NCBI GenBank assembly: GCA_002898255.1
Contig: BEIE01000003.1
Location: 62,001-126,000, forward strand
Direction: 5' to 3'
Source: a bacterium HR28
Lineage (GTDB): Bacteria; Chloroflexota; Chloroflexia; Thermomicrobiales; Thermomicrobiaceae
DNA: 64,000 bases
The position numbers and the translations under genes are program-made. The notes beneath the pieces were generated by a model. It was not told the origin of the DNA and did no database searches. It worked only from the letters and a program-made list of their open reading frames with translations. How positions within the stretch are numbered: the stretch's first letter is position 1; each line of letters begins with the position of its first letter. Shown piece after piece: positions 32,782 to 46,626 of this stretch.

Positions 32782-32792
32782 GGGCAGTGCAA

Positions 32793-32934
32793 GACCTTCG
32801 GGGCAGGGTGAGGCGCGAAGCGCCAATTCCCGACCGGCGGTAAAGCCCGCGAGCGGCCAATGGCCGCAGGATCCGGTGAGGCGCCAACGGCGCCAATTCC
32901 GGGGCCGACGGTATAGTCCGGATGGGAGAAGGTC
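32793..32934 (+). ncRNA. FMN riboswitch (RFN element)
   Basis: The conserved FMN aptamer is easily recognised: P1 GACCTTC (32793-32799) with GAAGGTC (32928-32934), the block GGGGCAGGGTGA, ATTCCCGACCGGCGGT, AAGCCCGCGAGC, GATCCGGTGA, and ATTCCGGGGCCGACGGTATAG ending GTCCGGATGGGAGAAGG. It binds FMN in the nascent transcript and turns off riboflavin synthesis genes when FMN is abundant. Paired variable arms (GGCGCgaaGCGCC and GGCGCCaacGGCGCC) are intact. It precedes ribD-ribE-ribBA-ribH. Confidence 0.96.
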
Positions 32935-32982
32935 GTTGTTCCGGTCGTTCGCACCGGTCTCTCAGCGACTTCGACCGATCCT

Positions 32983-33030: not shown

Positions 33031-34185
33031 GTGAGCGACGCGTACGCCTGCGATGTCGATCAGCAGTGGATGCGGCGAGCAATCGCCTGGGCCTGGCGTG
33101 CACAAGGACGTGTTGCCCCGAACCCGGCGGTCGGGGCGGTCCTGGTTCGCGACGGTGTTGTAGTCGGCGAAGGTTGCACGCAGCCGCCCGGCGGGCCGCA
33201 TGCAGAGATTGTCGCCATTCGTCAAGCGGGCGAGCGGGCGCGTGGAGCAACCCTTTACGTCACACTGGAACCCTGCGCCCACTACGGGCGGACTCCACCT
33301 TGTGTCGATGCGATCCTGCAAGCGGGCATTGCACGTGTGGTTGTAGCGGTTATTGATCCCTATCCAGAAGTTGCTGGGCGGGGTATAGCACGGCTCCGCG
33401 AGGCCGGTATCGTGGTCACCCTGGGGGTGGAAGCGCAGGCAGCGGCCGAGGTCAATGCTGGATATTTCAAGCGATTGCGGTATGGTTTACCGGACATCAC
33501 CTTGAAGTACGCAATGTCGCTCGATGGGCATATTGCGACGCGCAGCGGTCATTCGCGCTGGATCACCGGTCCTGAAGCACGCCGATACGCACACCAGCTG
33601 CGGGATCGCCACGACGCGATTCTGGTCGGAGTGGGAACGGTTCTTGCAGACGATCCGGAATTGACAACACGTCTCGATCCGGAGGATGCCGGCGACGGTG
33701 GTCCGCACCATCCGCTACGCGTTGTGCTCGATACGCACGCGCGGACGCCGCCGACAGCTCGCTTACTTGCTCCCGATCTCCCTGGTCGTACCCTGATCGT
33801 CACAACGGAAGCAGCCCCACCGGAACGAGTTGGAGCGCTGTGGCGCGCGGGGGCGGAGCTTGTCTTCGTTCCACAGCGCTGTGGCCGCGTTGATCTCCCG
33901 GCTGCACTGCGCGTTCTTGCCGAGCGCGGGATTAATCGAGTGCTTGTCGAGGGGGGTAGTCGCGTGCTCGGCGCGTTTTTCGACGAGGAGCTCGCCGATA
34001 GTGTGGTGGCCTTTATCGCGCCAGTGCTTATTGGCGGGGCGAACGCACCGGTCCCGCTGGCTGGGCAGGGCGTCGAAACGATGGAACAGGCTGTCCGGTT
34101 ACGAGAAATGCAAGTGCGTCAGGTTGGTACGGACGTCGTCATTGAAGGAAGACTCCGACCGCTCGAGATTCCGGAGGGCGTGTGA
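33031..34185 (+). CDS. ribD: Bifunctional riboflavin deaminase/reductase
   Basis: 384 residues from GTG 33031. The N-terminal deaminase has the zinc site H57-A-E, and EPCAHYGRTPPC with C82 and C91; it removes the amino group from the pyrimidine intermediate made by GTP cyclohydrolase II. The C-terminal reductase (from about 150; LKYAMSLDGHIATRSGHSRWITG, LVEGGSRVLGAF) reduces the ribosyl side chain with NADPH. Length and order are typical. Its stop overlaps the ribE start (TGATG). It is controlled by the FMN riboswitch just upstream. Confidence 0.96.
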   Translation: MSDAYACDVDQQWMRRAIAWAWRAQGRVAPNPAVGAVLVRDGVVVGEGCTQPPGGPHAEIVAIRQAGERARGATLYVTLEPCAHYGRTPPCVDAILQAGIARVVVAVIDPYPEVAGRGIARLREAGIVVTLGVEAQAAAEVNAGYFKRLRYGLPDITLKYAMSLDGHIATRSGHSRWITGPEARRYAHQLRDRHDAILVGVGTVLADDPELTTRLDPEDAGDGGPHHPLRVVLDTHARTPPTARLLAPDLPGRTLIVTTEAAPPERVGALWRAGAELVFVPQRCGRVDLPAALRVLAERGINRVLVEGGSRVLGAFFDEELADSVVAFIAPVLIGGANAPVPLAGQGVETMEQAVRLREMQVRQVGTDVVIEGRLRPLEIPEGV

Positions 34186-40139: not shown

Positions 40140-40945
40140 GACACTGCGCTCACTGACGCGTGGAGTTCCCAAAAGCGTTCAGCGAGGCGGCCCTGACCAA
40201 CAGTAAGCGCGTAGGTTCGGAGGGCTTCTTCGACATCGCCCAGCTCGCGGAAGATGAAAGCGACCTGACTCTCGTAGCACGAGATAGCCTCGAGTCGACG
40301 GCGAAACAACTCCTCACTGAGAAAAACGAGCCACGGAGGAGCTGACGCGTATTGCTGAGTTAGCTCAGAGCAGTGCTCTTGACCGATTGGGCTAGCCGCA
40401 TATGGCAGATCTTCATAAGCCCAGACAGGGTAGCCGCGAGCGGCCACTCCCAACCCGACCATGCGAGCGATTTGGTGGTCGACGTGACCACCAATGGCTA
40501 GGGGCAGAAAGAGTGTCACCTGTCCGCCCTGTTGTTCGATCACGTCTTCGACCATTGCACGGAGTGTCTCGACCAGGGAAAGATCGTCCGGATGGATAGG
40601 GCCGAAGAGTTCGGAGTCGGAAGTGTAGCGTGCGTCGCGGTAGATTGCGTCAGGAATATCAAACCAGAGAGCTCGGGCACCGAGCACCTTTGCGGCGGCG
40701 AGTTCCTCTTTGCGGTGCAGCTGGACGACAGCAGCATCGTCCAGTCCTCGCCAACGATGCTGTTGTCGTGCAAAGGCACTGAGCGGCTCACGTGGTTCTC
40801 CACCGAAGAGCGTGACCACGAGCGGTTGGAGACCAAGTTCAGCGAACAGGCAGACTGTTCCGCCGCAAGAGAGTGCGACGTCATCGAAGTGGGGCGCAAG
40901 AAAAATCGGGTTCTGCACCTTTTCAGGCGTAACGGACCCGTGCAT
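40097..40945 (-). CDS. PIG-L/LmbE family deacetylase, paralogue 2, downstream of selB
   Basis: 282 residues from ATG 40945; earlier codons in the frame lie inside selB. The metal site motif APHFDDVALSCGGT (about 16-29) and GGHVDHQ (about 148-154) fit the PIG-L family, which removes N-acetyl groups from GlcNAc-type substrates. The start lies inside the 3' end of selB (23-base overlap), so the genes are translationally coupled. A role linked to selenium is not implied; the pairing may only be an operon neighbour. The other PIG-L gene in the window is at 2658-3392. Confidence 0.83.
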   Translation of the reverse strand: MHGSVTPEKVQNPIFLAPHFDDVALSCGGTVCLFAELGLQPLVVTLFGGEPREPLSAFARQQHRWRGLDDAAVVQLHRKEELAAAKVLGARALWFDIPDAIYRDARYTSDSELFGPIHPDDLSLVETLRAMVEDVIEQQGGQVTLFLPLAIGGHVDHQIARMVGLGVAARGYPVWAYEDLPYAASPIGQEHCSELTQQYASAPPWLVFLSEELFRRRLEAISCYESQVAFIFRELGDVEEALRTYALTVGQGRLAERFWELHASVSAVSYLESDAVENEGME

Positions 40946-42818
40946 CGCCAACCCGCCGCGTGACGCGACGCTGATCAAGGTACTCGAGGAGCGCTTGGGC
41001 GTATTTGCGACTGGTACCGAGTTCGTCTCGGACCTGGGCCAAAGTAACGCTCCCATGCGCATCAATGAGTGCGAGAACGCGCTGTTGGATGGCTTCCCAG
41101 GCTTCCGGTGCAAAAACGACGTCGTCGGTGATACGAACAACCCGGCCCAGGTCAGCGAGCGCCTGCACAAGCTCACTTTCCAGTCCATATTCCGCTGGTG
41201 CTGGTGGAGTGAATGGTGCGCGTCGGAGGGCTGCCTCATAGGCGCGGGCACGGCTCTCCTGCTCTGCATCAAGCCGGATGCGGTGCTCCGGAAGTCGCAA
41301 GATCTCGTCCTCTTCTACGAGTTGGCCAGCGTTGGCTAGGCGGAGAACAACGTAATCAAACGCACGTTGGGTAAGGCCGAGGCGACTGCGCGCCATTTCG
41401 CGGGGTAGACCGCGCCGCAGGGGGAAGCGTGAGTGGTAATCCTGGACCAACTCCAGGAGTCGGGCACAGAGTCGCTCTGCTGTCTCGCGCCGGACCAGGG
41501 GTGTCGTCGGGCTCAGTGGACCGTCACCGCCGTCAAGAACAAGCACGTGCCCTGCCGCAATGACTCGTTGGATCGCCTCTGTGGCCGTCGATTCGTCGAG
41601 ACTTGCGCGCTGCAAAAGTTCGCGCCACTCGAGAACTTGGTCGCCTTCAAGCACCTGGAGGAGAATCGTTTCTGGATCACCTGAGGCGAGTGCCTCCAGC
41701 GCCCGGATGACCTCTGGTCGGAAACGACGGTGTCGACGGGGTGCCGTGTCCACAATGATTCCACCGCCGAGCGTCGAACTGGGGGAGGGACGTCGAATAA
41801 TGAACCGGTCACCGCGGGTTGCGACGATCGGTTCCTGAAGACGTAACTGCACCCAGCCACTCTGCCCAGGTTCGAGACGTTCGGCATCGAGCAATGTCAC
41901 GCGGGCGAGCGTCTCGCTCGTTCCCACAAAGAAGTCGACCTCGTCGTTCTGCTCCAGTGGAGCGGGAGCGTCCGGTACCATGCGAAGCCGCGCGTCAAGC
42001 AACGTCGTCGGCTTCAGCCATCCCGGAACGGTGAGCACGTCACCGCGCTCAATTTCATCGACCTCAACGCCGCTCAGATTGACAGCTGTCCGAGAGCCTG
42101 GCAATGCCCGCTCAACCCGCGTCCGATGGCTTTGTAGCCCGCGCACCCTGGCACGCAGGCCACGAGGGAGAATTTCAACCTCCTGCCCTACTTCGAGTTC
42201 ACCGTCCCGCAGAGTACCAGTGACGACTGTTCCGAAGCCGGACATGGTGAAGACGCGATCAATCGCGAGGCGAGGTCGTCCACGACCGGGATGTGGGGGC
42301 ACGTGGTCGAGTACGCGATCGATTGCGTCGACGAGCTCTGTGAGTCCCTGGCCAGTAGTTGCTGCAACGGGGATGATCCGTGCTCCTTCCAGCGTCGTCC
42401 CCCGCAGGAGTTCCTCGACCTCAGCTTGGACGAGCTCGAGCCAGTCTTCATCGACGAGATCTCGCTTCGTGAGCGCGACGACACCGTGCCGGATCTCCAA
42501 GAGGTCAATAATCGCCAAGTGTTCCCGAGTCTGTGGCATTGGCCCCTCGTCGGCTGCCACGACCAATAACGCGGCGTCGAAGCCGCCCACCCCGGCAAGC
42601 ATGTTCTTGATAAACCGCTCGTGACCGGGCACGTCAACAATGCTCAACCGCCGACCGCTCGGAAGTGTCATCCAGGCGAAGCCGAGGTCGATGGTCATCT
42701 CTCGCTCTTTTTCTTCGCGGAGACGATCCGGATCGATCCCGGTCAGCGCCTTGACCAGTGTCGATTTCCCGTGGTCAACGTGTCCAGCGGTTCCGATAAC
42801 GAATGTCTGTCGCGTCAT
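40923..42818 (-). CDS. selB: Selenocysteine-specific translation elongation factor
   Basis: 631 residues from ATG 42818. The N-terminal GTPase is EF-Tu-like: G1 AGHVDHGKST (11-20), G3 DVPGHERF (62-69) and G4 TKRD. The switch sequence EREMTIDLGFAWM is diagnostic of SelB rather than EF-Tu. Beta-barrel domains II/III follow, and the C-terminal 250 residues form winged helices (LRRGLPREMARSRLGL, SVTLAQVRDELGTSRKYAQALLEYLDQ) that bind the SECIS hairpin. It delivers Sec-tRNA to in-frame UGA. Neither selA, selD nor a tRNA-Sec gene is recognised in the window. It confirms that this organism can decode UGA as selenocysteine, as required by the oxidoreductase at 30481-31176. Confidence 0.95.
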   Translation of the reverse strand: MTRQTFVIGTAGHVDHGKSTLVKALTGIDPDRLREEKEREMTIDLGFAWMTLPSGRRLSIVDVPGHERFIKNMLAGVGGFDAALLVVAADEGPMPQTREHLAIIDLLEIRHGVVALTKRDLVDEDWLELVQAEVEELLRGTTLEGARIIPVAATTGQGLTELVDAIDRVLDHVPPHPGRGRPRLAIDRVFTMSGFGTVVTGTLRDGELEVGQEVEILPRGLRARVRGLQSHRTRVERALPGSRTAVNLSGVEVDEIERGDVLTVPGWLKPTTLLDARLRMVPDAPAPLEQNDEVDFFVGTSETLARVTLLDAERLEPGQSGWVQLRLQEPIVATRGDRFIIRRPSPSSTLGGGIIVDTAPRRHRRFRPEVIRALEALASGDPETILLQVLEGDQVLEWRELLQRASLDESTATEAIQRVIAAGHVLVLDGGDGPLSPTTPLVRRETAERLCARLLELVQDYHSRFPLRRGLPREMARSRLGLTQRAFDYVVLRLANAGQLVEEDEILRLPEHRIRLDAEQESRARAYEAALRRAPFTPPAPAEYGLESELVQALADLGRVVRITDDVVFAPEAWEAIQQRVLALIDAHGSVTLAQVRDELGTSRKYAQALLEYLDQRRVTRRVGDARVRYA

Positions 42819-46364: not shown

Positions 46365-46394
46365 TTGACGCTGAGTGCGAGGCGTGTTAGGCTC
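46365..46394 (+). promoter_or_regulatory. Promoter of the small transcription unit
   Basis: TTGACG (46365-46370) and TAGGCT (46389-46394) lie 18 bases apart, with the expected start near 46401. Downstream follow a hairpin, an 18-codon ORF and an intrinsic terminator, so the promoter is well placed to serve them. Confidence 0.65.
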
Positions 46395-46443
46395 AGCGCA
46401 TGTGCGGTTCTCGAGAAGAGACCGTGCAGGGGAAAGGGGGTGA

Positions 46444-46500
46444 TGCCCGGAATGAGTAGTCACGAACTTCCGGGCGTCACCGTGGAGGTGGTCGGGTAAC
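46444..46500 (+). CDS. 18-codon ORF inside the leader RNA
   Basis: ATG 46444 to TAA 46498-46500, with the strong purine-rich AGGGGAAAGGGGG directly upstream. The peptide is MPGMSSHELPGVTVEVVG, with four valines clustered at the end. Its start codon is sequestered in the 46440-46482 stem, and the stop falls 30 bases before the terminator stem, a layout like an attenuation leader. It may be untranslated. No match to a known leader peptide is recognised. Confidence 0.4.
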
Positions 46501-46530
46501 CGGCTCCCTCACGGGGGCGCCCACGCGAAC

Positions 46531-46567
46531 CACCGAGCCGGCCTCATCAGGCCGGCTCGGTGTTTTC
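46531..46567 (+). terminator. Intrinsic terminator
   Basis: A perfect 14-bp stem CACCGAGCCGGCCT (46531-46544) with AGGCCGGCTCGGTG (46549-46562) closes a CATC tetraloop and is followed by TTTTC. This is a classic Rho-independent terminator. It lies ahead of the DUF1684 start, so it either ends the small RNA or attenuates the following operon. Confidence 0.9.
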
Positions 46568-46626
46568 TCGGGTATCCTTGCCGCGGTGTAGGCGCAAAGG
46601 CGTGCAGGAGTAAGGAGCATCGGACG

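Follow-up and report, generated by a model that had tools for sequence, protein, structure and literature searches.

The window, by which we mean the whole 64,000-nucleotide stretch of HR28 DNA that was analysed, carries at 46365-46567 an element that comparison with its relatives identifies as a real, free-standing mini-gene of ca. 165 nt and as part of a conserved family. The element contains a short open reading frame (ORF) that is preceded by an unusually complete Shine-Dalgarno (SD) stretch and that includes one arm of two competing helices. We propose, with our confidence evenly divided for and against, that it encodes an autonomous, translated, bistable RNA switch that responds to translation.

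Architecture of the unit

The unit (Table 1) is flanked by a divergent DUF255 gene on one side and by DUF1684-pepA on the other, as assigned with Pfam. Both promoter boxes named in the original prediction are present, but they are separated by 17 nucleotides, not 18; this promoter scores 8 of 12 and was hence missed by our simple promoter scan, which listed only scores of at least 9 of 12. The strong ribosome site and the intrinsic terminator were recovered as described, the former complementing the 16S 3' end almost perfectly. That 3' end, in the form GGATCACCTCCTTT, was read in 12 of the 61 genomes of the order, with no match to that exact pattern in genome G000, and the motif AAGGRGGTGAT occurs four times in the 3.12-Mb genome.

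The position of the start codon had to be revised. The first ATG (46443) does give the 18 codons originally described, but it is not the start conserved across relatives, which is the second ATG, at 46452; in sister genera with a longer spacer the first ATG meets a stop at once. The 14-bp stem in which the ATG was said to be buried is real (46439-46452 with 46468-46481), but the conserved start codon contributes only its A, which closes the 5' arm. The predicted fold of the element's RNA has a free energy of -99.9 kcal/mol, compared with -71.2 for dinucleotide shuffles (z -7.0), and none of 200 shuffles was as stable.

Table 1. Features of the unit in the window.
Feature	Position	Strand	Basis and remarks
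Sigma-70-like promoter TTGACG-17-TAGGCT	46365..46393	+	Read in the sequence; TTGACG 46365-46370, TAGGCT 46388-46393
Predicted 5' hairpin of the transcript	46401..46428	+	Fold prediction; start site probably near 46400
SD stretch AAAGGGGGTGAT	46433..46444	+	Complements the 16S 3' end ATCACCTCCTTT, with one G-U
Arm 1 (SD/start side)	46439..46452	+	Partner is 46468-46481
Conserved short ORF MSSHELPGVTVEVVG, stop TAA, 15 codons	46452..46499	+	Comparison of relatives
Arm 2, within the ORF	46468..46484	+	Pairs with arm 1 through 46468-46481 and with arm 3 through 46472-46484
Arm 3, downstream of the stop codon	46510..46522	+	Competes with arm 1 to pair with arm 2
Intrinsic terminator, 14-bp stem and T tract	46531..46566	+	Terminator scan; stem 46531-46562, 11 G-C

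Distribution of the element

A DNA search with positions 46366-46575 as the query gave matches at E ≤0.1 in 44 of the 61 order genomes, the weaker matches being short and some of them due to chance; the 33 rows at E ≤1e-3 align across the promoter, SD, ORF, arms and terminator. A strict pattern composed of the long SD, the spacer and ATGAGTAG was present in 51 of the 158 class genomes and in 21 of 400 genomes sampled from the phylum; when reversed, it had no match in either set. The covariance search in related genomes, which had been suggested as a check, gave a much broader distribution. A model built from ten rows of a single family (R1) matched 132 of the 158 class genomes at a cut-off of E 0.01, nearly always with one copy each, including 85 of the 93 with at least 90% completeness and at most 5% contamination. 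Within the phylum sample, R1 matched 62 of 400 genomes, at least two of them falsely (G158, G401), since four loci (L271, L277, L251 and L268) were judged on reading not to be the element. Among 38 genomes reached via named loci, R1 matched three, two from the Thermomicrobiales and one from the Anaerolineae; it had no match in the 28 not labelled Chloroflexota or in the seven further Chloroflexi/Anaerolineae genomes.

A related form of the element occurs in other classes. A second covariance model (R2), built from six sequences of those classes, matched 47 of the 400 phylum-sample genomes. Because R2 falls on the R1 element itself in four genomes (G028, G050, G069 and G093), we take the two forms as one family. 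The R2 matches were read in part, 31 loci against 47 matching genomes, one of the 31 coming from the 38-genome set; three of these loci (L287, L289 and L301) yielded nothing by script, L289 being the place of L145, which was read separately.

Second copies look intact in G113 (L216, L217), G122 (L230, L231) and G131 (L193, L218), and degenerate or cut in G001 (L267) and G054 (L278). At L020, two overlapping copies stand face to face (1499-1648), with arm 3 of one complementing the ORF of the other; as this locus is close to the end of a MAG contig, the arrangement is perhaps an assembly artefact.

The short ORF

The conserved ATG starts an ORF of 14-19 codons, with the same hairpin region at its end, in 33 of 33 aligned rows, which is beyond chance, and then in 53 of 53 elements; neither count carried an ORF-length filter. 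The curated set used below comprises 138 elements in 20 family handles, with ORFs of 12-20 codons. Its ORF counts are conditional, because the filter demanded an SD motif, an ORF of 10-22 codons and complementarity. It was obtained from 140 distinct script matches by removing two matches of family f8 (at another site, with peptides beginning MPAGS). Four listed loci gave no script match: the in-frame stop is gone from L197, the SD is variant in L228 and missing from L267, and L278 is cut.

Arm 2 keeps a fixed register with the reading frame. In all 121 distinct class ORFs it starts 17, 20, 23 or 26 nt past the start codon, with no change of codon phase, and 19, 22, 25 or 28 nt ahead of the stop. 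At least 11 ORF length changes, each a multiple of three, are needed within families alone, a number that is a minimum because it was counted without a tree. The SD-to-start spacer, by contrast, varies from 9 to 14 nt. The peptide itself is not what is conserved: wobble T is mostly kept at codon 2 (104/121) and codon 3 (98/121) while the amino acids vary, and the C termini differ between elements, with an N terminus that is rich in Ser, Asp and Asn. In other classes the GGCATC arm is read in a different frame (MDSSNKPSAVASLLK and similar). Because ORF lengths shift in frame while the peptide varies, it is the act of translating the ORF, not the peptide product, that seems to matter. Reading the peptides of the 20 family handles revealed no shared regulatory codon run, and the valine codons with which the short ORF had been said to end are not conserved. 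A separate feature of many elements, although not all, is the frequent start ATGAGTAG (46452-46459 in the window), which shuts both other frames, with TGA in +1 and TAG in +2.

Pairing of the ORF arm

At least 8 of 10 bases pair between arm 2 and the SD arm in 137 of 138 elements. For an RNA ending at the stop codon, fold prediction put SD:ORF pairing above 0.5 for 124 of the 138 elements, compared with 106 of 414 RNAs in which the ORF-tail codons had been shuffled; for the full-length RNA, pairing exceeded 0.5 in just 15% of 137 elements. The window element is an exception, since its 14-bp SD:ORF helix is predicted to stay dominant at full length (0.60 at 37 °C and 0.63 at 65 °C). Changes in the SD:ORF helix are one-sided only, with zero double changes, the outcome that a fixed SD arm would give, and they offer no proof of covariation.

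The helix between arm 2 and arm 3 has double changes at 4 of 14 pairs among ten rows. In the same ten rows, 95.8% of cells pair in the two-helix structure, a value that falls to 30-58% when the structure is slid by one to three columns. Across 136 elements, arm 2 pairs with its own 3'UTR at -20.2 kcal/mol, compared with -15.8 when 3'UTRs are swapped and -18.2 when they are swapped within a family. None of 20000 permutations reached the observed mean, either across all elements or within families, and the same was true (0/20000) of the apical part. An earlier duplex test, in which the whole ORF tail was set against shuffled 3'UTRs, had given a weak and uneven signal, since in many elements more than 5 of 100 shuffles did equally well; shuffles rich in G+C also pair well, and the swap test therefore took its place. 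On these comparisons of sequence, the ORF:3'UTR helix is supported by covariation between genomes.

Transcription signals and flanking genes

Promoters scoring at least 9 of 12 are found in 106 of 137 related elements, as against 5.6% of mononucleotide shuffles, and TTGAC is present in 123 of the 137. Terminators were detected in 111 of 136 elements, as against 53 of 680 shuffles, leaving 25 of 136 without one by scan. Judged by these signals, the element is a free-standing transcription unit with its own promoter and terminator. In 59 of 138 elements, from eight families (f1, f2, f3 and f5-f9), a small LysM-domain gene with the same orientation ends directly upstream, as checked with Pfam at L119, L122, L017 and L039; this link may be historical or functional. 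On the downstream side, a convergent gene for ribosomal protein L25 is the neighbour of 26 elements of f2, f5 and f9 (27 cluster members, two of which belong to one element), with Pfam checks at L016, L119, L122, L166 and L180. DUF1684 is downstream in f1 only, most of that family having DUF1684-pepA, and at L045 a long opposite-strand ORF separates the element from DUF1684. A conserved co-directional regulated gene was not found downstream, where neighbours vary. Because the downstream genes differ among families, the unit appears to be free-standing and not the controller of one neighbour.

A conserved antiterminator competing for the 5' arm of the terminator was also sought by swapping, and none was found among 111 elements: this arm pairs with its own upstream sequence at -11.4 kcal/mol and with swapped sequence at -11.7, and 4974 of 5000 within-family swaps were as good. 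Since the terminator arm pairs no better with its own upstream region, the switch does not appear to be a transcription attenuator.

Discussion

The switch that we propose would work as follows. Before arm 3 is made, arm 2 is predicted to mask the SD; once made, arm 3 would capture arm 2 in most genomes, forming a long hairpin with the stop codon in its loop. For Thermomicrobium itself, folding predicts that the SD-hidden form is dominant even at full length. Ribosomes that load on this very strong SD and translate across arm 2 would reset the helix competition, and because their transit resets it, the shape of the RNA would report the supply of initiating ribosomes. The long SD, together with the exclusion of other roles, suggests that the RNA may act in trans, where its most likely role would be to hold or sense 30S subunits. 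Taken to its fullest extent, this would lead to a phylum-wide housekeeping RNA directed at the ribosome: a near-perfect complement of the 16S 3' end, gated by a hairpin, would park or count 30S subunits as they initiate, and the switch would be reset by translating a dispensable 15-codon ORF; we offer this version tentatively and would sooner bet against it than for it.

One alternative is a mini-mRNA whose short peptide is the product, with hairpins that merely tune its translation. Retention of the frame and stop in nearly all elements, and a peptide N terminus rich in Ser, Asp and Asn, fit such a gene. The freely varying C termini, the wobble T retained at codons 2 and 3 while the amino acids change, and the other frame in which other classes read the GGCATC arm are not what a functional peptide would predict, and we think this explanation unlikely. 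We hold a similarly low opinion of the idea that the element is a base-pairing sRNA that regulates mRNAs in trans, with translation of the ORF gating which arm is free. Its independent promoter and terminator and its variable neighbours would suit an sRNA, and on reading, arm 2 looks like the 16S 3' tail and might base-pair with SD regions; arm 2 is, however, largely paired in the predicted states.

The original prediction had likened the element to an attenuation leader. As far as architecture goes, the likeness stands, since the short ORF, competing hairpins and terminator are all there, and DUF1684-pepA does follow in most of f1. A function as the cis-acting transcription attenuator of the next gene (DUF1684-pepA in the window) was nonetheless rejected and is, in our estimation, very improbable: the downstream gene depends on the family, 26 elements face a convergent L25 gene, the opposite-strand ORF at L045 stands ahead of DUF1684, and the swap test gave no sign of a conserved antiterminator. 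Least probable of all is a CsrA-binding sRNA of the RsmW/RsmZ kind. The window element scores 40 bits (E 1.2e-5) against RsmW (RF02809), but the gathering score of that family is 52, and other elements weakly match other Rfam families instead, again below threshold. CsrA is encoded in the window's own genome, but a search of the 61 order genomes found it in 14, with none belonging to f5, the family that has the highest R1 scores; an RsmW/CsrA-type sRNA was rejected on this score and on the lack of a link to CsrA presence. A membrane toxin was set aside as well, the peptides being short and polar on reading.

The suggestion that the element could be a new regulatory RNA or small protein of no known class has held up, in that it is conserved in the phylum and no Rfam 15 family reached its gathering score on it. 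Scans of eight relatives together with the window element gave sub-threshold matches only. Our literature search found no description of the element; outside that search lies a 2017 survey of candidate RNAs, which reportedly presents 224 of them. The element is uncatalogued, a statement that covers Rfam 15 and the literature searched. Chloroflexi-1, which is listed for Chloroflexus aggregans (PMC2864571), was compared here through Rfam scans alone.

Several known systems share features with the element. The Trp_leader, Thr_leader and Phe_leader attenuators in Rfam likewise have a short ORF and mutually exclusive helices with a terminator behind them, and some relatives of the element give weak sub-threshold matches to such leader-peptide families. 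Unlike these, the element has neither a conserved regulated gene downstream nor a codon run, and its terminator lies outside the switch. Translation attenuation of the ermC type also involves a helix-hidden SD, a short ORF and a rearrangement driven by the ribosome, but the SD hidden here is that of the short ORF itself, and no second ORF precedes the terminator. Dual-function RNAs such as SgrS/SgrT and SR1/SR1P are also small free-standing transcripts with a short ORF, whereas the 12-20-codon ORF of the element lies within the switch. The hok-type mRNAs share co-transcriptional refolding that governs translation, but they differ in their products, since the peptides of the element are short and polar, unlike membrane toxins. 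With RsmW the element shares a sub-threshold covariance score, without any tie to CsrA presence.

The element is usually single-copy and, being present in 85 of the 93 good class genomes and having relatives in other classes, is conserved like a housekeeping RNA. If our proposal is correct, it would be a natural gene that separates being translated from making a peptide, and the ribosome-directed reading, if true, would make it a counterpart of 6S RNA.

Two other features of the window were seen in passing. A SelB-like elongation factor is encoded at 40923-42818 on the minus strand, as judged by reading; neither a tRNA nor a tmRNA was found in the window. The window's only match at an Rfam gathering score is an FMN riboswitch at 32790-32937 on the plus strand (85.6 bits), which by reading is ahead of a ribD-like gene at 33031, with a riboflavin-synthase-like ORF at 34182 also downstream.
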